Positions 14,102-23,610 of a stretch of DNA of 64,000 nt are shown here, piece after piece. The stretch spans positions 124,001 to 188,000 of the forward strand of contig JADYYY010000015.1 of assembly GCA_020853395.1 (NCBI GenBank), in the 5' to 3' direction. This DNA comes from Acidobacteriota bacterium (lineage in GTDB: Bacteria; Acidobacteriota; Vicinamibacteria; Vicinamibacterales; SCN-69-37). A model generated the notes under the pieces. The model was not told the DNA's origin, ran no database searches, and saw only the letters and a program-made list of their open reading frames with translations. Every line of letters begins with the position of its first letter. Positions within the stretch are counted from its first letter, which is position 1. The position numbers were made by a program, and so were the translations under genes.

Positions 14102-14270
14102 CTTAATCCCGGAACCCGCGTGCTATGCTCCGCGACGCTCCATCAGACGCTTGCGACGCCGGTGAAGATGCGTGACGATGGCGGGTCGATCCTTCCTTGG
14201 GACGGACTTCGACCGGGCCGGGGACGAGCCTCGATCGGGCCTTGGGATGAACTTCGATCGGGAGGACAGC

Positions 14271-15098
14271 ATGAGATCTGTAGCGCGTGGAGGGGGCTGG
14301 ACGGCAGCCGTCACGATCGCGGCGGCGCTCGGTGCTTCGATCGCGATCGCGCAGGTCGGCAGTGCGGTGTCGGCTCAGGGCCGTGGCGGCCCTCCGGGCG
14401 GCGCTCCCGTCCCGTTCGAGGATCGGACCGGCTTCCGCGAGATCTTCGACGGGCGGACGATGGGCCAGTGGGATGGCAACCCGGAGTTCTGGCGTGTCGA
14501 AAACGGCGCCATCGTCGGCGAGACCACGAAGGAGCATCCGCTCGAGGTGAATACCTTCATCGTCTGGCGCGGCGGCGAGCCAGCCGATTTCGAACTGAAG
14601 CTCGAGTTCAGGATCAACGCCACGAACAGTGGCGTGCAGTACCGCAGTGTCGCGCTGACCGACGTCGGCCGATGGGTGCTGAAGGGGTATCAGGCCGACA
14701 TCGACTTCAACAACCAGTACACCGGCATGCTGTACGAGGAGCGCGGGCGCGCGTTCCTGGCGCCGCGTGGCACGTTCGGCTACGTCGGCCCCGGCCAGCC
14801 GGCGCCTGGCACGGCGCAAGCGCGCGGGAGCGCGACGCCCGCAGGCGTACGCGGTCCGATCGGCGCCCTCGAGAACGGCGACGCGCTCAAGGCCTACATC
14901 AGGCAGAACGACTGGAACCAGTTCCACGTGGTTGCGCGAGGCAACGTGCTGGTTCACGTGCTGAACGGCCACGTCACGGCGCTCTTCGTCGACGACGATC
15001 CGGTGGGGCGCGCGATGAAGGGCCTGATCGGCCTGCAGCTCCACGTCGGTGACCCGATGAAGGTGGAGTTCAGGAACATCTGGCTGAAGACGCTGTAA
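14271..15098 (+). CDS. Exported 3-keto-disaccharide hydrolase (DUF1080) family protein
   Basis: 275 residues from ATG 14271 with GGGAGG about 7 bases upstream; an in-frame extension to 14172 is not needed. The signal peptide runs through [20 protein letters not shown] single DUF1080 domain fills the rest: [20 protein letters not shown] near its start, [35 protein letters not shown] and a final [13 protein letters not shown]. The family hydrolyses 3-keto-glucosides formed by periplasmic glucoside 3-dehydrogenases. The TIM-barrel isomerase gene starts 18 bp downstream, so the two are probably co-transcribed and head the catabolic cluster. Confidence 0.85.
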
Positions 15099-15116
15099 GC
15101 GACGGAGGGAGTGCCC

Positions 15117-16004
15117 ATGCGCGTGGCGATGCACAACTGGATGCGGGCCGAGCCGATCGAAGCGACGATCGAGCGGCTGGCGAAGTGCGGGTACGACGCG
15201 ATCGAGATCAGCGGCGAGCCCGAGAAGTACGACACCAGGGAAGTCCGAGGGCTGCTCGAGCGGCACGGCCTCACGTGCTGGGGCTCGGTCACGCTGATGC
15301 TCGGCGACCGCAACCTGCTCGCAGCGGATGAACGGCAGCGCGCCATGTCGGTGAAGTACGTGAAGGACACGATCACGATGGTCAAGGAGCTCGGCGGCGA
15401 GGAGATCACGATCGTGCCCGGCACCGTCGGGAAGGTCGTGGCGGACGCCGGGCCGGACGAGGAATGGCGGTGGGCCGTCGACAGCCTCAAGCAGTGCTAC
15501 GAGCACGGCAAGCGCGAAGGCGTCCGGATCGCGATCGAGCCGCTGAACCGCTTCGAGACGTACTTCGTCAGCCGGCACGATCAGGCGCTGTGCCTGGCCG
15601 ATGCCGTGGCGCCCGACTGCGGCATCTGCCTCGATGCATTCCACATGAACATCGAGGAGAAAGACTTCTTCCAGGCGATCAGGAACGCGAAGGGCCGGCT
15701 CGTCGACTTTCACGTGGCCGACAACAACCGCATGGCGTGCGGGATGGGCGCGCTCGACTGGAAGAGGATCATCGCGACGCTGCGCGAGATCGGGTACGAC
15801 GGCGCGCTGACCGTCGAGTTCGTCGCGCCAATCGACCGGACGCCGGCGAATCCGTACAAGAACATGCTCGAGGCCGGCCCGCGACCCGACATGACGCCCG
15901 AGGAGTGGAAGTTCATGGTCGACCATGGCACCGGCGCGCTCTCCGACGAGTTCTACACGTGGCTCGTGCAGGAGACGATCGATCATCTCAGGCAGAGCAT
16001 GTGA
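15117..16004 (+). CDS. Sugar phosphate isomerase/epimerase (TIM barrel)
   Basis: 295 residues. ATG 15117 (MRVAMHNWMRAEP) is chosen over GTG 15111 because GGAGGG then lies 7 bases upstream. AP_endonuc_2-type TIM barrel: CGYDAIEISGEP, EEITIVPGTVGK, RIAIEPLNRFE, GICLDAFHMNIEE, DFHVADNNRM and LTVEFVAP. IEPLNRFE and the CLDAFHMN/HVADNN pairs carry the Glu-His-Asp metal ligands typical of hydroxypyruvate isomerase, tagatose 3-epimerase and related enzymes. Placed directly behind the DUF1080 hydrolase, it may process 3-keto-sugars released there. Substrate unproven. Confidence 0.85.
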   Translation: MRVAMHNWMRAEPIEATIERLAKCGYDAIEISGEPEKYDTREVRGLLERHGLTCWGSVTLMLGDRNLLAADERQRAMSVKYVKDTITMVKELGGEEITIVPGTVGKVVADAGPDEEWRWAVDSLKQCYEHGKREGVRIAIEPLNRFETYFVSRHDQALCLADAVAPDCGICLDAFHMNIEEKDFFQAIRNAKGRLVDFHVADNNRMACGMGALDWKRIIATLREIGYDGALTVEFVAPIDRTPANPYKNMLEAGPRPDMTPEEWKFMVDHGTGALSDEFYTWLVQETIDHLRQSM

Positions 16005-16220
16005 CGGTCCGTCGTGCCGGATCCTCGGTCGTTCTGACCCGGCGTCAGCGCGTGCCTCGAACCTGCCATCAGGCAGCTCTCGGTCCGGTTCGCCTGCCGC
16101 ACGTCCGGTCAATCGGTGCAGGCGGTCGGTGCCGGACGCTGACGTTGGATTGAGGAAACGCCAGGCGAGCGTCCGAGCGCTCCGCGGACCCGGCGTCTCC
16201 GACGAGCCAGTCGTACCCGT

Positions 16221-17465
16221 ATGAAGCACGTGCTCTTGATCGGCACGCTCGACACGAAAGGGCCCGAGGTCGCGTACGTGCGCGATCGTGTGCGGGCGCT
16301 CGGCGTCGAGCCCATCGTGGCGGACTCGGGGATTCTCGGCGAGCCGCTCGACATCGTTCCGGACGTCACGCGCGCCGAGGTCGCGACGCTGGCCGGCACC
16401 ACGATCGACGCCTTGCGCCAGGCCGGTACGCGCGGCAAGGCCGTCCACGGCATGCTGCCCGGCCTGCGGAAGCTGGCGCTCGATCTCTACAAAGAGGGGC
16501 GGCTGCACGGCGCGGCCGCACTGGGCGGCGCGGAAGGCGCCGTCCTCGGCGCGAGCGCGATGATGGGGCTTCCCATCGGCGTGCCGAAGATCATCGTCAC
16601 CCCGATTGCCTCGGGGCATCGGCGGTTCGGGCCGCTCGTCGGCACGAAGGACGTGATCGTCGTCCACTCGGTGATCGACATCCTCGGCCTGAACCCGATC
16701 AGCCGCGCGGTGTTCGACAACGTGGCGGCGGCGCTCGCCGGCATGGCGCAGCACGGTCACGCGCTCGAGATGCGGGACGGCCGCCGGCGCGTGGCGATCA
16801 CGATGCTGGGGAACACGACGACGGCCGTGATGCGGATCCGGGATCGGCTGCTCGCGCACGGGATCGAGTCCGTCATCTTTCACTCGAACGGCGTCGGCGG
16901 GCCCGCGATGGAAGAGCTGGCCGCCGACGGGCTCTTCGCCGGCGTGATCGATTTCACGACCGACGAGCTGGCCGACGAGCTGGTCGGCGGATTTCACGCG
17001 GCCGGACCGGACCGCCTGCGAACGGTCGGCCGCCTGGGGCTGCCACAGGTCGTCGTGCCCGGCTGCATCGATTTCTCGGTGCACGGCAGGCCCGAGGCGG
17101 TGCCCGCCGCGCTCGCCGGCCGTCCGATCTACACGCACAATCCCGAGTTCACGCTCGTGCGCACGCAGCCCGACGAGATGGCGCAGCTCGGCCGCGTGTT
17201 CGCCGAGCGGCTCAACGAGGCGATCGGCCCGCTGTGCGTCGTCGTGCCGACGGCCGGCCTGTCGATTCCGTCGGTTCCGGGCGGCGTGTTCTGGGACCCC
17301 GACGCCGATGCCCGGTTCCTCGCGGCGCTGCGCGGCGCGCTGCGGACCGACATCCCGATCCGCACGCACGCGCTCCACGTCAACACCTCGGAGTTCGCCG
17401 ATCTCGTCGCCGACGAGTTCCTCACCCTTCTGCACCGATCAGCCGCAAAGGACACGCGCTCATGA
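16221..17465 (+). CDS. Tm-1-like ATP-binding domain protein (UPF0261)
   Basis: 414 residues. It starts MKHVLLIGTLDTKGPEV, the hallmark of the UPF0261/Tm-1 family, and has the two-domain length of that family. The N-terminal Tm-1-like domain binds ATP and the C-terminal part resembles TIM-barrel PEP-hydrolase-like proteins. The family is best known from the tomato Tm-1 resistance protein; bacterial members sit in catabolic operons with unknown chemistry. The stop overlaps the creatininase start (ATGA at 17462-17465), so the two are translationally coupled. The preceding gap 16005-16220 has no gene I can support. Confidence 0.85.
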   Translation: MKHVLLIGTLDTKGPEVAYVRDRVRALGVEPIVADSGILGEPLDIVPDVTRAEVATLAGTTIDALRQAGTRGKAVHGMLPGLRKLALDLYKEGRLHGAAALGGAEGAVLGASAMMGLPIGVPKIIVTPIASGHRRFGPLVGTKDVIVVHSVIDILGLNPISRAVFDNVAAALAGMAQHGHALEMRDGRRRVAITMLGNTTTAVMRIRDRLLAHGIESVIFHSNGVGGPAMEELAADGLFAGVIDFTTDELADELVGGFHAAGPDRLRTVGRLGLPQVVVPGCIDFSVHGRPEAVPAALAGRPIYTHNPEFTLVRTQPDEMAQLGRVFAERLNEAIGPLCVVVPTAGLSIPSVPGGVFWDPDADARFLAALRGALRTDIPIRTHALHVNTSEFADLVADEFLTLLHRSAAKDTRS

Positions 17466-18334
17466 CCGTCCCGATTCCGATCACGCTGACGTCGAACAAC
17501 ATGGCGGATCTCGCCTACCCCGACGTCCAGGAGTACCTGAAGGTGTGCGACCTCGTGCTCGTGCCGATCGCGAGCACCGAGCAGCACGGGCCGCACCTGC
17601 CGCTGTCGACCGACACCGTCACGGCGGTGCAGGTCGCATCGCGCGTGGCGAAGATCAACAACATGCTGCACACCCCGGTCATCTGGACGGGCTACTCGCC
17701 CCAGCACATGGCCGGGCCCGGCGAGGGGCGCGGCACCATCACGGTGCGCGCCTCCACGCTGCAGGCGATCATCCACGACGTCGCCCGCAGCCTGATCCAC
17801 CATGGCTTCAACAAGATCATCTTCATCAACGGTCACGGCTCGAACGTGAAGGTGATCGACCAGGTGCTGCGGAAGCTGCGGTACGACACGGGGGCGCTGA
17901 TCGGCTGGTGCAACCCGTACATGGAGCGGTACGTGGGTCTGCTCGAAGGGCTCATGGAGAATCCCGCCGACGAGACCCCGGGATGGCACTCGAGCGAGCT
18001 GGAGACCTCGCAGATGCTCGCCAACGACGCGCGGCTGGTGCGGATGGATCGCGCGGTCAAGACGCTCACGCAGATCCCGGCCTGGCTGCCGAAGAAGTTC
18101 GGCAAGAAGGACGGCGCGCCCGACATCCAGTTCGAGGGCTACAGCTACTTCACGTTCCCCATGGACCATCACGAGTTCACGCACACGGGCGTCATCGGCA
18201 ACCCTGAGCGCGCGACGAAGGAGAAGGGCGAGGAAGCGTTCCGCCGCTACTCGGAGCACATCGCGCGCGCGGTGGCCGCGCTGCTCGACGTCGAGACGCG
18301 CGTGCACACGCGGGAGTTCAGGGACCGGGTCTGA
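17462..18334 (+). CDS. Creatininase-family amidohydrolase
   Basis: 290 residues from ATG 17462, overlapping the previous stop by 4 bases. Family motifs: VPIASTEQHGPHLPLSTDT, with the Glu, His and Asp that bind the two metal ions; GYSPQHM; FINGHGSN; and WHSSELETSQM. Creatininase-type enzymes hydrolyse cyclic or linear amides (creatinine, or the formylamine in riboflavin and mycofactocin pathways). Here it is co-transcribed with a Tm-1-like gene and a glycolate-oxidase-like pair, suggesting catabolism of an amide- or lactam-containing compound. The exact reaction cannot be deduced. Confidence 0.85.
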   Translation: MTVPIPITLTSNNMADLAYPDVQEYLKVCDLVLVPIASTEQHGPHLPLSTDTVTAVQVASRVAKINNMLHTPVIWTGYSPQHMAGPGEGRGTITVRASTLQAIIHDVARSLIHHGFNKIIFINGHGSNVKVIDQVLRKLRYDTGALIGWCNPYMERYVGLLEGLMENPADETPGWHSSELETSQMLANDARLVRMDRAVKTLTQIPAWLPKKFGKKDGAPDIQFEGYSYFTFPMDHHEFTHTGVIGNPERATKEKGEEAFRRYSEHIARAVAALLDVETRVHTREFRDRV

Positions 18335-18356
18335 AGATCGACGCCGCGCCGATCCG

Positions 18357-19793
18357 ATGAGCCTGTCTCCTGACGTTCTCCGGTCGCTCGAGCGGGTCGT
18401 CGGCGCCGATCGCGTGTCCACGCGCGAGACGCACCGGCTGATCTACTCGGTGGACTCGTACTGGCTGCCGCAGATGTGGCTCGACCGCGGCGAGCGCATG
18501 CCCCAGCCGGACGCCGTGGTCTTTCCCGCATCGGTCGCGGAGATCAGCGGCGTCCTGGCGCTCGCGCACGCCCACCGCATTCCGGTCGTTCCGTGGGGCG
18601 GCGGCTCCGGCACGCAGGGGGGCGCGCTGCCCATCCACCACGGGATCGTCGTGGACGTGAAGCGCCTGAATCGGATTCTCGAGATCAACGAGCGGTCGCT
18701 CTACGTCACGGCGCAGGCGGGCGTGAACGGGACGGAGCTCGAATGGGCGCTGAACGAGCGCGGGCTCACGCTGCCGCACTACCCGGCGTCCGCCAACTGC
18801 GCGACCCTCGGCGGGTATCTCGCACCGCGCGGATCGGGAACGATCAGCACCAAGTACGGCAAGGCCGAGGATCTGGTCATGAGCCTCGAGGCCGTGCTGC
18901 CCGATGGGCGGGTCATCCGGACGCCGCCGGTGCCGAACCATGCGTCGGGGCCGGACTTCATGCGCCTGTTCCTGGGATCTGAAGGCACCTTCGGGATCAT
19001 CACCGAAGCCACGATGCGCGTGACGAAGCTGCCAGAGGTGCGGCTGTTCCGCGCGATCCTGTTCAAGGACGTCGCGACCGGGCTCGAAGCTGGGCGCCGG
19101 ATGATGGTCGACCGGCTCGACCCGCTGGTCATCCGGATGTACGACCCTCATTCCACGGCGTCGCTCGTGAAGCGCGTGCTCGGGTACGAGCTGAGCGGCG
19201 CCTACATGATCGTCGGCTTCGACGGCTGGCGCGAGATCGCCGCCGCGCAGGAAGCCCGCGCCATGGCGATCTGCGACGAGCTGGGCGGCCGCGACCTCGG
19301 GCGGGAGCCGGGCGAGCGCTGGTGGAACCACCGGTACGACTTCTACTACCCGCCGCTGTCGCTGCATCTGCCGGCGATGTACGGCACGGTCGAGACCGTG
19401 GCGACGTTCGATCGAATCGAGGCCATCTATCACGCGAAGAAGGCTGCCATCGAGGAGGGCTTCGGCCATCTCGGCGTCGAGTACATCGCGCACTTCTCGC
19501 ACTGGTTTCCGTGGGGCGCCAGTCTGTACGATCGCTTCGTGCTGCGGGCCGCGCCCGCCGACCCGCGCGAGGCGCGGGCGCTGCACGACCGGCTGTGGGA
19601 CGCGGCGGTGGAGACCTCGCTGCGCCACGGTGGCATGATCAACGAACACCACGGCGTCGGGTTGAAGCTGAGCCGCTTCATGCGCGCGCAGTACGGGGCG
19701 GCTTGGCCTCTGCTCGAGGCGATCAAACAGACCATCGATCCGCACGGCATCATGAACCCCGGCAAGGTCGGGTTCGAGGAGCGCCCGTCGTGA
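18357..19793 (+). CDS. FAD-linked oxidase, glycolate oxidase GlcD-like
   Basis: 478 residues, beginning 22 bp after the creatininase stop. The FAD_binding_4 domain carries VPWGGGSGTQGG. The C-terminal FAD-oxidase domain has NEHHGVGLKLSRFMRAQYG and ends with DPHGIMNPGKVGF, all typical of GlcD and D-lactate dehydrogenases. It would oxidise a 2-hydroxy acid and pass electrons to the Fe-S protein encoded immediately downstream, whose GTG start overlaps this stop by 4 bases. The native acceptor is probably the quinone pool. The substrate is unknown. Confidence 0.85.
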   Translation: MSLSPDVLRSLERVVGADRVSTRETHRLIYSVDSYWLPQMWLDRGERMPQPDAVVFPASVAEISGVLALAHAHRIPVVPWGGGSGTQGGALPIHHGIVVDVKRLNRILEINERSLYVTAQAGVNGTELEWALNERGLTLPHYPASANCATLGGYLAPRGSGTISTKYGKAEDLVMSLEAVLPDGRVIRTPPVPNHASGPDFMRLFLGSEGTFGIITEATMRVTKLPEVRLFRAILFKDVATGLEAGRRMMVDRLDPLVIRMYDPHSTASLVKRVLGYELSGAYMIVGFDGWREIAAAQEARAMAICDELGGRDLGREPGERWWNHRYDFYYPPLSLHLPAMYGTVETVATFDRIEAIYHAKKAAIEEGFGHLGVEYIAHFSHWFPWGASLYDRFVLRAAPADPREARALHDRLWDAAVETSLRHGGMINEHHGVGLKLSRFMRAQYGAAWPLLEAIKQTIDPHGIMNPGKVGFEERPS

Positions 19794-20902
19794 GCCACAC
19801 GTCGGCGGCCGGAACGCAGCGGACCACCGAGCTCTGCCGCTACTGCTGGATGTGCCGTCACGTGTGTCCAGTCGGCCGCGTGACGGCGCAAGAGACACAC
19901 ACGCCGCACGCGTGGGCGCTCACGATCGAATCGGTCCGCCGCGGTCAGATTGCGTGGACGGCCGACAGCGTCGACGTGCTGTTCGCCTGCGCGGACTGCG
20001 GCCTGTGCCAGACGCATTGCGTCACCGGCCAGCCGCTGCCCGACGCCATCGTCCAGGCGCGCGCCGAGGTCGTTGCCGCCGGCGACGCGCCGGCCGGCAT
20101 CCAGGAACTGGCCGGCCGCCTGCAGCGCTATGGCAACGCCTACGTGGAGGCGGCGCCCAAGCGGGGCGGCAGCGTCGGGCGCACCGCGCTCTTCGCCGGC
20201 GACGTCGCATCCGCGCTGCGGCCCGCCGCGATCGACGCCGCCGTTCGCCTGCTGGCCGCCGCCGGCATCGATGACGTGGTCGTGGTCGCGCGCGGCCGCT
20301 CGTCGGGGTTGCTCGCGAGCAGCGTCGGGCTCACGAGCCTGGCGCGGTCGCTCGCGCGCGAGGTCGTGGACGACGTGCAAACGGCCGGCGCACACGATCT
20401 GCTCGTCCTTTCAGCCGCGGACCGCTGGACGTTCGACTACGTCTACCCGCGCCGCCTCGGCGTGACGTGGCCGGACGGCGTGCACGCGCTCGAGGTCGCG
20501 ACGGTGCTCGCGCGCGCGCACGCCGAGGGACGTCTCACGTTCACGCCGATCGACGACGACGTGCCGTTCGGCTATCACGATCCCTGCCACGCGCCGCGGG
20601 TACGGCACGACCCGGAGTCGCCACGTGCGCTCGCCGGCGCCGCGCTGGGCGCTCGAAACGCGCGCGAGCTCTTCTGGCGAGAGCGCCGCGCGCATCCGTG
20701 CGGCGCGATCGGAGGGCTCGAGTACACGCACCCGGAGGTCAGCCGTGCGCTCGCCGAAGCCCGCCTCGGCGACGCGAGGGCCGCTGGGGTTGGCCGAATC
20801 GTGACCGAAGACCCGGCCTGCGCCGCCCAGCTCGCGCGGCACGCCGGCGACGTTGACGTCGTGAGCCTCTACGAGCTACTCGACGAGCGGCTCGTCCGCT
20901 GA
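19790..20902 (+). CDS. (Fe-S)-binding protein, GlcF/heterodisulfide reductase-like partner
   Basis: 370 residues from GTG 19790, inside a GTGA overlap with the preceding oxidase. Two 4Fe-4S motifs lie near the N-terminus: CRYCWMCRHVCP and CADCGLCQTHC. Downstream are degenerate CCG-domain remnants (GYHDPCHAPRV and a later HPCGAIGG) as found in GlcF and HdrB/D. It should relay electrons from the FAD subunit. The first CCG box is reduced compared with GlcF, so quinone contact may differ. The gene converges on the RraA-family gene with only about 30 bp between them. Confidence 0.8.
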   Translation: MSHTSAAGTQRTTELCRYCWMCRHVCPVGRVTAQETHTPHAWALTIESVRRGQIAWTADSVDVLFACADCGLCQTHCVTGQPLPDAIVQARAEVVAAGDAPAGIQELAGRLQRYGNAYVEAAPKRGGSVGRTALFAGDVASALRPAAIDAAVRLLAAAGIDDVVVVARGRSSGLLASSVGLTSLARSLAREVVDDVQTAGAHDLLVLSAADRWTFDYVYPRRLGVTWPDGVHALEVATVLARAHAEGRLTFTPIDDDVPFGYHDPCHAPRVRHDPESPRALAGAALGARNARELFWRERRAHPCGAIGGLEYTHPEVSRALAEARLGDARAAGVGRIVTEDPACAAQLARHAGDVDVVSLYELLDERLVR

Positions 20903-20933: not shown

Positions 20934-21848
20934 CTATTTCTTCGGGTACGTCGCCCGAATCTCCTCGAGCCGCTTCTTCAGGTAGGCGTCGTACTCGGCT
21001 TTGAGCGCCGGGTCGCTGGGCGTCCCGTAGATCTCGCGCGATCTGTAGCGGCCTTCATCGAACTTCTTGCGCGTCCACTCGTCGTGCACGTGGATCACGT
21101 CGGCGCCGTCGAGCACCGGCTCGACGAGTGCCGGCGGGATGAAGTAGACGCCCTCGGCGTCGCCGAAGACGAGATCGCCCGGCATCACCGTGGTCTTCCC
21201 GATGCGCACCGGCACGTTGATGCCGGTGAGCATCACGTTGCCGATGGGTGTCGGGTGCGCCGTCCGGAAATAGGCCGGCATGTCCATGGTGCGGATGCCT
21301 TCGAGATCCCGGATCGCACCGTCGACGACGAGGCCGGCGCCGCCCGTCGCCTTCATGACGTAGTAGAACAGGTTGTCGCCGACGATCGTGCCGTTCTCGT
21401 CCATGCCGAAGAGATCGACGACGAGGACGTCGCCGGGCTGGAGCATGTCGATGGCGACCTGGTTGTTCATCCGCCCGACGCCGAGGGCCTTCGCGTTGGC
21501 GTTGACGATCGCGTCGAGGTCGGGCCGCACCGGCATGAACTGCACCGTGAAGGCCCGGCCGACCAGCTTGCGGCCCGGGTGGAGCACCTGGAAGCCGTTC
21601 GCGAACTGGTTGCGGAAGTTCTTGCCCGGCAGCACGGCCAGCACCTCTTCGGCAGAGAGGCCGCGCGCGCGCTCGACCAGCCAGTCCGGCACCTTCGGCC
21701 GGCCATCCGGGAAGCGCTCGTAGGGATTCTGCGCGCTCCATTCGATCATCTGCTCGCGGTTCAACGAGAAGAGTTGTGCCTTCGGCATCGCGCCCAGCGC
21801 GAAGGCGACGAGGGAGAGCGCGAGCACGAAGCGCGTTCGACCGATCAT
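20934..21848 (-). CDS. Exported RraA-family protein (HMG/CHA aldolase-like)
   Basis: 304 residues from ATG 21848, with GGAGG 5 bases upstream; another ATG 18 bases earlier is less well placed. An N-terminal signal peptide (TRFVLALSLVAFALGAMPKA) is followed by a full RraA-like fold: GRAFTVQFMP, GDVLVVDLFG, GDNLFYYVMKATGGAGLVVDGAIRDL (split by position), GNVMLTGINVPVRI and MPGDLVFGDAEGV. The GGAGLVVDGAIRD stretch carries the Arg/Asp pair used by class II pyruvate aldolases. Normal RraA and HMG-aldolases are cytoplasmic, so the signal peptide is unusual. It lies 61 bp downstream of the Tat-exported enolase gene and is probably in its operon. Confidence 0.8.
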   Translation of the reverse strand: MIGRTRFVLALSLVAFALGAMPKAQLFSLNREQMIEWSAQNPYERFPDGRPKVPDWLVERARGLSAEEVLAVLPGKNFRNQFANGFQVLHPGRKLVGRAFTVQFMPVRPDLDAIVNANAKALGVGRMNNQVAIDMLQPGDVLVVDLFGMDENGTIVGDNLFYYVMKATGGAGLVVDGAIRDLEGIRTMDMPAYFRTAHPTPIGNVMLTGINVPVRIGKTTVMPGDLVFGDAEGVYFIPPALVEPVLDGADVIHVHDEWTRKKFDEGRYRSREIYGTPSDPALKAEYDAYLKKRLEEIRATYPKK

Positions 21849-21909
21849 CAATGCCTCCAGGACCACGGATGGGCGTCTGGTATTTCGAGCCGCCAGCGTC
21901 GGCGTTCGT

Positions 21910-23310
21910 TCAGCTCCAGAGCCGATCGTTGGACGGCACGGTGTCCCACTCCGGCGTCGGGCGGAACAGGCCGGAGTCAGGCCGCAGGTGCTGCTGCACG
22001 ACGTCGAGGTTGACGTCGAGGCCGAGCCCCGGCGCGTTCGGCGGCACCGCGAAGCCCCGATCGAACAGCGAGCCGCCGCCGAGCACGGTGACCATCGAAT
22101 TCCACCACGGCACGTCGAGCGAGTGGTGCTCGAGCGCGACGAAGTTCTCGGTGGCAGCGGCTGTGTGCACGCTCGCCATCAGGCTGATCGGCGTGCCGGC
22201 CGAGTGCATGGCCATCGCGACGCCGTGCTCCATCGCGTAGTCGCCGATCTTCTTCGTCTCGATGAGGCCGCCGGAGCTCGCGAGATCCGGGTGGATCATG
22301 TCGACGGCGCCCATGTCGATGAGCTTGGCGAAGTCCTCTTTCAGGTAGATGTCCTCGCCCGTCAGGATCGGCGTCGTCGTCGACTCCTTGATCTGCTTGA
22401 CGAGATCGCCGAACTGCCAGGGCACCATGTCCTCCATCCAGGCGAGGTTCCACTTCTCCATCGTGCGCGCCAGCTTGATGCAACTGTTGACGCCGATGTG
22501 GCCGTAGTGGTCGGTGGACAGCGGGATCTCCCAGCCGATGATCTCGCGGAGCGTGCCCACCCAGTCCGACAGCCAGGCCAGCCCCTTGTCGGTGATCTCG
22601 ATGCCGGTGAACGGGTGCATCACCTGGGCACCCTGGCCGAGGCTCGTGCCGGCCGGATAGGACAGCGTGCCGGGCACCTTCTGCATCAGCCCGATGCCGA
22701 AGTCCTGTTTCAGGAAGGTGATGCCGCGGTCCATCCGCTCCTTGAGCCGGGCCGCCTGTTGCTTCGGATCGGCCTCACTCGTCGTGTCGGCGTAGAGCCG
22801 CACGCGATCGCGGAAGCGGCCGCCGAGCATCTGCCAGCACGGCACACCCCAGGCCTTGCCTGCGAGGTCCATCAGCGCCATCTCGATCCCGCACACGCCG
22901 CCGGCCTGCCGCGCCGGCGCGCCGAACTGCTTGATCTTCCGGAACACCTTGTCGACGTTGCAGGGGTTCTCGCCGACGATCCGGCTCTTGAGCATGAGCG
23001 CGTAGCGCTCGTTGCCGCCATCGCGCACCTCACCCCAGCCGACCAGCCCTTGATTGGTGTCGATCCTGATGATCGGCACCGTGAAGGGCGCGCCGGTGAC
23101 GACGGCGACGCGCAGGTCGGTGATCTTCAGCGCCGACGGCTCGGATGCGCGGTTCACGTTCGCCTGCACGAAGTCGGCGCGCGCCGCCGCGGCGGCCTCG
23201 CCGGTCAGCGCCATCGCGGCGGAGGCGCCGAGCCCGAGCGTTCGGAAGAACGATCGGCGATCCACACCCGGGTGGCTGTCATCGAGCAGCGCGCGCGTTG
23301 CGGGTTTCAT
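21910..23310 (-). CDS. Tat-exported mandelate racemase/muconate lactonizing (enolase superfamily) enzyme
   Basis: 466 residues from ATG 23310, with a strong AAGGAGG directly upstream. A twin-arginine signal is seen at DRRSFFRTLGLGASAAMAL. The enolase-superfamily body includes LVGWGEVRDGG, MDLAGKAWGVPCWQMLGG, the lysine-containing strand ITFLKQDFG, LSTDHYGHIG, AWMEDMVPW, LTGEDIY and DLASSGGL. This resembles acid-sugar dehydratases of the mandelate racemase branch. Together with the exported RraA-like protein it suggests dehydration then aldol cleavage of a sugar acid outside the cytoplasm. That pathway is inferred, and the substrate is unknown. Confidence 0.85.
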   Translation of the reverse strand: MKPATRALLDDSHPGVDRRSFFRTLGLGASAAMALTGEAAAAARADFVQANVNRASEPSALKITDLRVAVVTGAPFTVPIIRIDTNQGLVGWGEVRDGGNERYALMLKSRIVGENPCNVDKVFRKIKQFGAPARQAGGVCGIEMALMDLAGKAWGVPCWQMLGGRFRDRVRLYADTTSEADPKQQAARLKERMDRGITFLKQDFGIGLMQKVPGTLSYPAGTSLGQGAQVMHPFTGIEITDKGLAWLSDWVGTLREIIGWEIPLSTDHYGHIGVNSCIKLARTMEKWNLAWMEDMVPWQFGDLVKQIKESTTTPILTGEDIYLKEDFAKLIDMGAVDMIHPDLASSGGLIETKKIGDYAMEHGVAMAMHSAGTPISLMASVHTAAATENFVALEHHSLDVPWWNSMVTVLGGGSLFDRGFAVPPNAPGLGLDVNLDVVQQHLRPDSGLFRPTPEWDTVPSNDRLWS

Positions 23311-23610
23311 GAGCCTCCTTGTCGTCCCGGTACCGATGTTCGAGCCTGGCCGTCTCGCACGGATGTCGGGTCCCGGCCGGCGACCGATCGTGCAACGCCC
23401 CGAGAGCGTCGGGCCGCCCGGCGTGTGCGAGCTGGCGCGTCCGGGCGGCCGTGTCGCACGCGAGCGCCGCGCTCGCGGCCGGCTCCTGACCGCCATTCGA
23501 GCGATCGTCAGCGCGCTCGCCGTCCCCTCGGGACCCCCACGGTCCTCCTCCCAGTTGTCGTGTGCTGGACAGGATAGGGACCTGGCGAATGGAGGTCAAG
23601 GGCCGTCCTC

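Follow-up and report, generated by a model that had tools for sequence, protein, structure and literature searches.

Central sugar-acid catabolism, in which dehydration is followed by aldol cleavage, is taken as cytoplasmic; what, then, could it mean that two adjacent genes for enzymes of these kinds both carry predicted export signals? The question is raised by a 64,000-nucleotide stretch of the genome of a soil-type Acidobacteriota bacterium (here called the window; assembly GCA_020853395.1, contig JADYYY010000015.1, positions 124,001 to 188,000), in which a gene for an enolase-superfamily protein of the mandelate racemase/muconate lactonizing enzyme (MR/MLE) type is followed by a gene for an RraA-like protein. 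We found that the pair is real, conserved and functionally suggestive, and that it consists of known kinds of enzymes in an unusual compartment. The best-supported explanation, which we regard as somewhat probable, is that a sugar acid would be dehydrated in the periplasm and the product then cleaved by the RraA-like protein in an aldol-type reaction.

Gene pair and predicted export signals

The MR/MLE gene (21910..23310, minus strand) encodes a galactonate/mannonate dehydratase-like protein of 466 amino acid residues, with the Pfam domains PF13378 and PF02746 and conserved metal ligands. The RraA-like gene (20934..21848, minus strand) lies 61 bp downstream on the same strand and encodes a class II pyruvate aldolase-type protein of 304 residues with the Pfam domain PF03737 and the residue pair R180/D181. 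Both genes begin with ATG; a ribosome-binding site, AAGGAGG (23314..23320, minus strand), stands 3 nt upstream of the MR/MLE start, and the intergenic stretch (21849..21909, minus strand) holds a GGAGG 5 nt upstream of the RraA start. The N-terminus of the MR/MLE protein, ...GVDRRSFFRTLGLGASAAMALTGEAAAAARA, is predicted to form a twin-arginine translocation (Tat) signal region of approximately residues 1-39 (23194..23310, minus strand), with the two arginines at residues 18-19 followed by an uncharged stretch. The N-terminus of the RraA-like protein, MIGRTRFVLALSLVAFALGAMPKA/QLF, reads as a Sec-type signal peptide (21777..21848, minus strand) with an n-region, an h-region and an A-X-A type cleavage site, the predicted cleavage falling at about residues 24/25 (AQ).

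A longer open reading frame for the MR/MLE protein would start at 23496, but the start at 23310 is preferred because of its ribosome-binding site and because the nearest homologue, in genome G125 (75% identity), has the same start. The window's genome (G000; 4.28 Mb, 99.9% complete) encodes TatC. The twin-arginine signal, the Sec-type signal and the 61-bp same-strand spacing named in the first-pass annotation are therefore all borne out. The whole of G000 contains only two RraA-like and three MR_MLE_C genes, and export signals are found on all five by script or by eye.

Conservation of the signals among relatives

Homologues were collected from plasmids and from 297 surveyed genomes, all of one phylum. 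The RraA protein matched at E<=1e-30 in 22 of these genomes, at 25 places, and the MR/MLE protein matched at E<=1e-60 in 13; a contig scan with the RraA protein outside the survey added three relatives, labelled as Acidobacteria or Bryobacterales metagenome-assembled genomes (MAGs). Profiles were built from the regions around these matches and around the other PF03737 matches in the same 23 genomes, and the regions were then scanned with them; the genes in these GC-rich loci (designated L plus a number) were picked by codon-position GC. The RraA family of the window was defined as the frames scoring >=297 bits, the window included (n = 29).

A Sec-type signal is present in all 29 frames of this family, 27 by the script rule and two (L006 and L068) by eye. 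Under the same rule, signals were found in 15 of the 16 intermediate RraA frames and in 6 of the 32 distant ones. Homologues without signals had been named as the finding that would undo the idea of export, and within this family none was found. The Tat rule, in turn, is satisfied by all 34 assessable MR/MLE frames that are related to the window's protein or neighbour an RraA gene. Four further frames fell outside the rule: two (L101, L076) are cut by the end of the locus, and two (L110, L111) are nearly without the extension and were read as unexported. L093 and L107 carry the same gene. In a control of other MR/MLE genes from 40 loci of the same genomes, 16 of 41 frames also pass the Tat rule (Fisher 2e-9 against 34/34), a rough background since the rule is lenient and, by eye, 2-3 control rows are misjudged. 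Tat-exported MR/MLE proteins are thus common in the phylum, and it is the set related or adjacent to this RraA family that is uniformly exported; the earlier picture of an exported MR/MLE enzyme as a departure from a cytoplasmic norm holds less strongly than first stated. The NCBIfam Tat model TIGR01409 gives weak confirmation, with matches at E<=1 in 12 of 32 MR/MLE sequences. The window's own protein is not among them at that threshold; only the other Tat model, TIGR02811, matches it (E 0.024).

Pairing of the two genes and agreement of location

Against a background of 227 MR_MLE_C and 72 PF03737 matches in 120 Mb, an MR/MLE gene lies within 1 kb of 7 of the 26 places of the window's RraA family, where 0.2 would be expected (Poisson P ~3e-9, which is too small by an unknown factor, as are all such pairing values, because the surveyed genomes are related). 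For all PF03737 rows the count is 12 of 72 against an expected 0.6. The partners also agree in location in all 11 adjacent pairs (Fisher 0.018): both are exported in nine (the window, L007, L055, L056, L057, L060, L064, L068 and L109) and both unexported in two (L110 and L111). The L007 pair comes from a MAG, and the other ten, the window included, from surveyed genomes. L058, where 2.9-4.4 kb separate the RraA genes from an MR/MLE gene, was for that reason left out of this comparison. The MR/MLE partners belong to more than one subfamily: the window's type (window, L007, L068), a ManD-like type (L007, L055, L060, L109) and a third type (L056, L057, L064). The first-pass annotation had put forward a survey of the co-occurrence of the exported forms; the two families adjoin far above expectation, and both partners are exported in nine of the 11 adjacent pairs.

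Families and catalytic residues

Both proteins are placed firmly in their families: PF03737 gives 101.6 bits for the RraA-like protein (gathering cut-off 24.5), and MR_MLE_C (PF13378) and MR_MLE_N (PF02746) give 133.7 and 45.4 bits for the MR/MLE protein, each above its cut-off. The MR/MLE metal ligands D267, E293 and E319 are invariant in 32 sequences, and H369 is nearly so. R180 and D181 of the RraA-like protein are invariant in 29 of 29 and align with R123/D124 of the HMG/CHA aldolase chain 3NOJ. Passages of PMC5065237 describe Arg-123 of this aldolase as essential and catalytic and Asp-124 as metal-binding, and state that two motifs exist for class II pyruvate aldolases of the HMG/CHA type. 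D158 aligns with D102 of 3NOJ, the closest relatives of the window's protein carrying an additional residue ahead of R180. Taking the two motifs, as we assume them to be worded, as D-X20-R-D and G-X20-R-D-X2-E, we counted 12 and 6 frames respectively among the 29; five more, the window included, have D-X21-R-D, one has neither and five were unparsed. AlphaFold models built from alignments of three and four sequences were poor (mean predicted local distance difference test scores of 51.9 and 42.2), and nothing was concluded from them.

Cytoplasmic counterpart in rhizobia

A tblastn search of plasmids with the RraA protein gave 88 records, 76 of them from Rhizobium, and among the 60 rows listed the alignment begins at query residues 34-62, past the signal. 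Twelve plasmid neighbourhoods were examined by annotation. In five, the gene immediately 5' of the cytoplasmic RraA homologue is an MR/MLE gene, with a complete sugar ATP-binding cassette (ABC) importer upstream in four and part of one in the fifth (L141); these five cases are closely related and hence are not five independent events. In another neighbourhood the RraA gene follows an L-arabinonate dehydratase gene, again with an ABC importer, while five have no dehydratase neighbour and one has no annotation. The best clue that RraA works on a dehydrated 2-keto acid comes from its position behind two unrelated kinds of sugar-acid dehydratases.

Exported gene clusters in relatives

The fullest cluster of mostly exported sugar-acid genes is L058 (G203:C5:100000-119900), whose signals were judged by eye. 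Tat signals mark several MR/MLE genes there, a UxuA-like homologue of mannonate dehydratase, two DUF362 proteins and an aldo/keto reductase. The cluster also has an exported 7-bladed lactonase and an exported aldose 1-epimerase, with a lactate permease alongside, as well as two Sec RraA genes, one of the window's family and one of a second type. A lactonase, a lactate permease and an RraA gene also stand together in L073, and a lactate permease directly adjoins an MR/MLE gene in G062:C320. Overall, a lactate permease is found within 10 kb of 3 of the 26 RraA places (0.15 expected).

The second exported RraA type is shorter and occurs next to or near the first in several loci (L056:2458-3249, L057:8346-9071, L008:5144-5914, L007:8950-9672 and L058:6359-7129). 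Where the motif columns could be aligned, Gly replaces Asp at position 158 and Gln often follows R-D. DUF362 proteins stand beside exported sugar-acid enzymes at L007:2235-3437, L058:3480-4841, L058:12565-13758 and in L088; those whose N-terminus was read (L007, L058) have Tat signals.

Proposed function and rival explanations

At the level of sequence, the analysis establishes the two genes and their predicted signals, the retention of signals and catalytic residues among relatives, a non-random pairing and the agreement of location between partners. The conserved paired export suggests that some sugar-acid breakdown may take place outside the inner membrane, and the two genes are best explained as a small export-targeted catabolic unit, for which we infer the reactions, their order, the substrate and the product import. 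In this proposal, the MR/MLE enzyme would be folded with its metal in the cytoplasm and exported via Tat; in the periplasm it would convert an aldonate-type sugar acid by dehydration into a 2-keto-3-deoxy acid. The RraA-like enzyme, exported via Sec, would then cleave the 2-keto acid in a metal-dependent retro-aldol reaction of the pyruvate type (or decarboxylate or dehydrate it further), and monocarboxylate carriers would take up the small products. The first-pass annotation had proposed such a two-step periplasmic route from the window; export and pairing stand, and the conserved catalytic residues, the rhizobial cytoplasmic pair behind sugar importers and the exported sugar-acid genes of related clusters are in its favour, while the reactions themselves keep the standing of a proposal, neither protein reaching an equivalog cut-off.

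Several observations weigh against this explanation. As the control frames indicate, export is common among the MR/MLE proteins of this phylum; 19 of the 26 RraA places, including some on short contigs, lack an MR/MLE neighbour within 1 kb; and in G125, the closest survey match for both proteins, the two genes are 1.5 Mb apart. UxuA was not found in G000, and the sole lactate permease of that genome is located away from the pair. The best NCBIfam score of the MR/MLE protein, to galactonate dehydratase, is 175.2 bits against an equivalog cut-off of 311 (D-mannonate dehydratase, ManD: 139.9 bits, cut-off 550), and the best score of the RraA-like protein, to the subfamily PRK08245, is 151.8 against 208 (ligK/PcmE equivalog: 70.9 bits, cut-off 304.5). 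In D-galactonate dehydratase (GalD), the second catalytic His should follow the first metal ligand by two residues, and most of the other aligned MR/MLE sequences do have a His there. The window's protein has D267-H268-Y269 at this site, and all 20 members of its subfamily place His at +1 and an aromatic residue or Leu at +2. Such an Asp-His-[Y/F/L] at the first metal ligand is an unusual active-site arrangement in its own right. Since it replaces Asp-x-His, the chemistry of the protein is not readable from galactonate dehydratase and may differ from it.

That RraA-like folds carry out other chemistry also counts against an aldolase. FlDet, a member of the RraA family, is a dehydratase/decarboxylase that converts 2-keto-3-deoxy-D-glucarate, according to passages of PMC8563752, and the RraA-like enzyme could do the same to a 2-keto-3-deoxy-aldarate after an MR/MLE aldarate dehydratase. 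Aldarate dehydratases do occur among MR/MLE enzymes (80 bits for the window's protein with the NCBIfam talarate/galactarate model), but its best score is to an aldonate enzyme, and we consider this reaction quite unlikely. Slightly better placed, yet still unlikely in our judgement, is a role in the periplasmic 3-keto-glycoside route, in which both exported enzymes would act on keto-sugars made with DUF1080 and GFO/IDH/MocA proteins rather than on plain sugar acids; the MR/MLE enzyme would abstract an alpha proton as an epimerase or eliminase, and the RraA-like enzyme would cleave or isomerise the keto-sugar. DUF1080 is known as a periplasmic 3-ketolactose hydrolase from passages of PMC9007349. 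Its genes are abundant in G000 (32 matches in 4.3 Mb, a strong expansion), with one 5.8 kb from the pair; others lie next to an RraA gene in G156 (C1:1960349-1961035 versus 1961331-1962152) and near RraA genes of G000:C7 and G125, and GFO/IDH/MocA proteins adjoin RraA in L061 and lie close to it in L055. The enrichment, however, is slight: by a hand count with 150 of the 210 DUF1080 places listed, DUF1080 lies within 7 kb of 5 of 43 RraA rows, where ~1.4 would be expected. The adjacency is weak evidence because of this, of the 32 genome copies and of the distance and opposite strand of the nearest gene; moreover, in rhizobia the pair follows sugar ABC importers, and the stretches examined there carry no DUF1080 annotation.

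A further rival is that the signals are misread and the true starts lie downstream, leaving two cytoplasmic proteins. The low scores with the NCBIfam Tat models point that way, but the signals are kept in 29 of 29 RraA and 34 of 34 MR/MLE relatives, the ribosome-binding sites are well placed at the signal-bearing starts, and unexported homologues merely do without the extension; we consider a misreading very improbable.

Periplasmic dehydration followed by aldol-type cleavage may also be part of something larger. In many Acidobacteriota an entire non-phosphorylating pathway for sugar acids might lie outside the cytoplasm, with an exported mutarotase, a lactonase, Tat dehydratases and Sec RraA aldolases, in which pyruvate-like acids and aldehydes would be made in the periplasm and taken up via lactate permease instead of the sugar acid being imported. 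Lineages would then swap the exported dehydratase subfamily (window's type, ManD-like, UxuA-like) before the same exported aldolase family, with L058 as the most complete example. We put this forward tentatively, as possible but doubtful. If these bacteria dehydrate and cleave sugar acids in the periplasm at all, part of their carbon metabolism would run outside the inner membrane, affecting uptake, energy yield and product sharing, and two exported families annotated just as 'mandelate racemase/muconate lactonizing enzyme' and 'RraA' would gain a testable role.

Gene neighbourhood of the pair

On the plus strand, a run of genes at 14172-20902 converges on the RraA gene: a DUF1080 protein, a xylose-isomerase-like TIM barrel, a UPF0261 protein, a creatininase, a GlcD-type FAD oxidase and an Fe-S protein, an unusual combination. 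The DUF1080 protein (3-keto-disaccharide hydrolase family; 14172..15098, plus strand; Pfam PF06439, 120.4 bits) has a signal-like N-terminus. Its gene is the nearest of its family to the pair, 5.8 kb away on the opposite strand, and for both reasons it was rejected as part of the unit; the claim that the pair lies beside DUF1080 hydrolases is accordingly reduced to one such gene nearby, out of 32 in the genome. The GlcD-type oxidase and Fe-S protein (18357..20902, plus strand; Pfam PF01565/PF02913 and PF02754/PF13183) could possibly serve 2-hydroxyacid oxidation, and we treat them, like the DUF1080 protein, as neighbours rather than as demonstrated members of the unit. The surroundings were also considered as a repeat of the L058 cluster and rejected, as neither UxuA nor a lactonase nor a permease turned up next to the pair.

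A second set occurs elsewhere in the window's own genome (L093/L107, G000:C7:232000-251900), with a Tat ManD-like MR/MLE gene and an exported RraA of another type 10.5 kb away. Next after this RraA comes a signal-bearing aldose 1-epimerase-like protein, and a DUF1080 gene lies 1.5 kb from the same RraA.

Comparison with known systems

Among the matches listed in the open-access literature searched, we found neither an exported RraA-like protein nor an exported MR/MLE-RraA pair described. One of the closest descriptions of chemistry is that of FlDet: by description, both it and the window's protein are RraA-like, and FlDet acts on a 2-keto-3-deoxy sugar acid in a different reaction; the words 'periplasm' and 'signal peptide' are absent from the main text of that paper (PMC8563752). 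In SAR202, 80 enolase-superfamily paralogues are assigned to non-phosphorylative sugar-acid breakdown, and export is unmentioned in the passages concerned (PMC10444878).

Compared with the class II pyruvate aldolase of the HMG/CHA type (PDB 3NOJ), the window's protein shares the RraA-like domain, keeps R180 and D181 and has D158 at the position of D102. It differs in its Sec signal, in an N-terminal region of ~50 residues and in a C-terminal tail, and it and its closest relatives have the D-X21-R-D spacing instead of D-X20-R-D. Similarly, the MR/MLE protein keeps both domains, the metal ligands and the late-barrel H369 of the D-galactonate and D-mannonate dehydratases, and departs from them in its Tat signal, in the replaced second His (D267-H268-Y269) and in scores below every dehydratase equivalog cut-off. 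The rhizobial MR/MLE-RraA operons are alike in arrangement, with the same two families adjoining in the same order and RraA directly 3'. Unlike the window's pair, they have an importer in the operon, and the aligned part of their RraA is without a signal peptide and 30-33% identical. The exported pair and its cytoplasmic counterpart in rhizobia together offer a simple system for questions of substrate and location.

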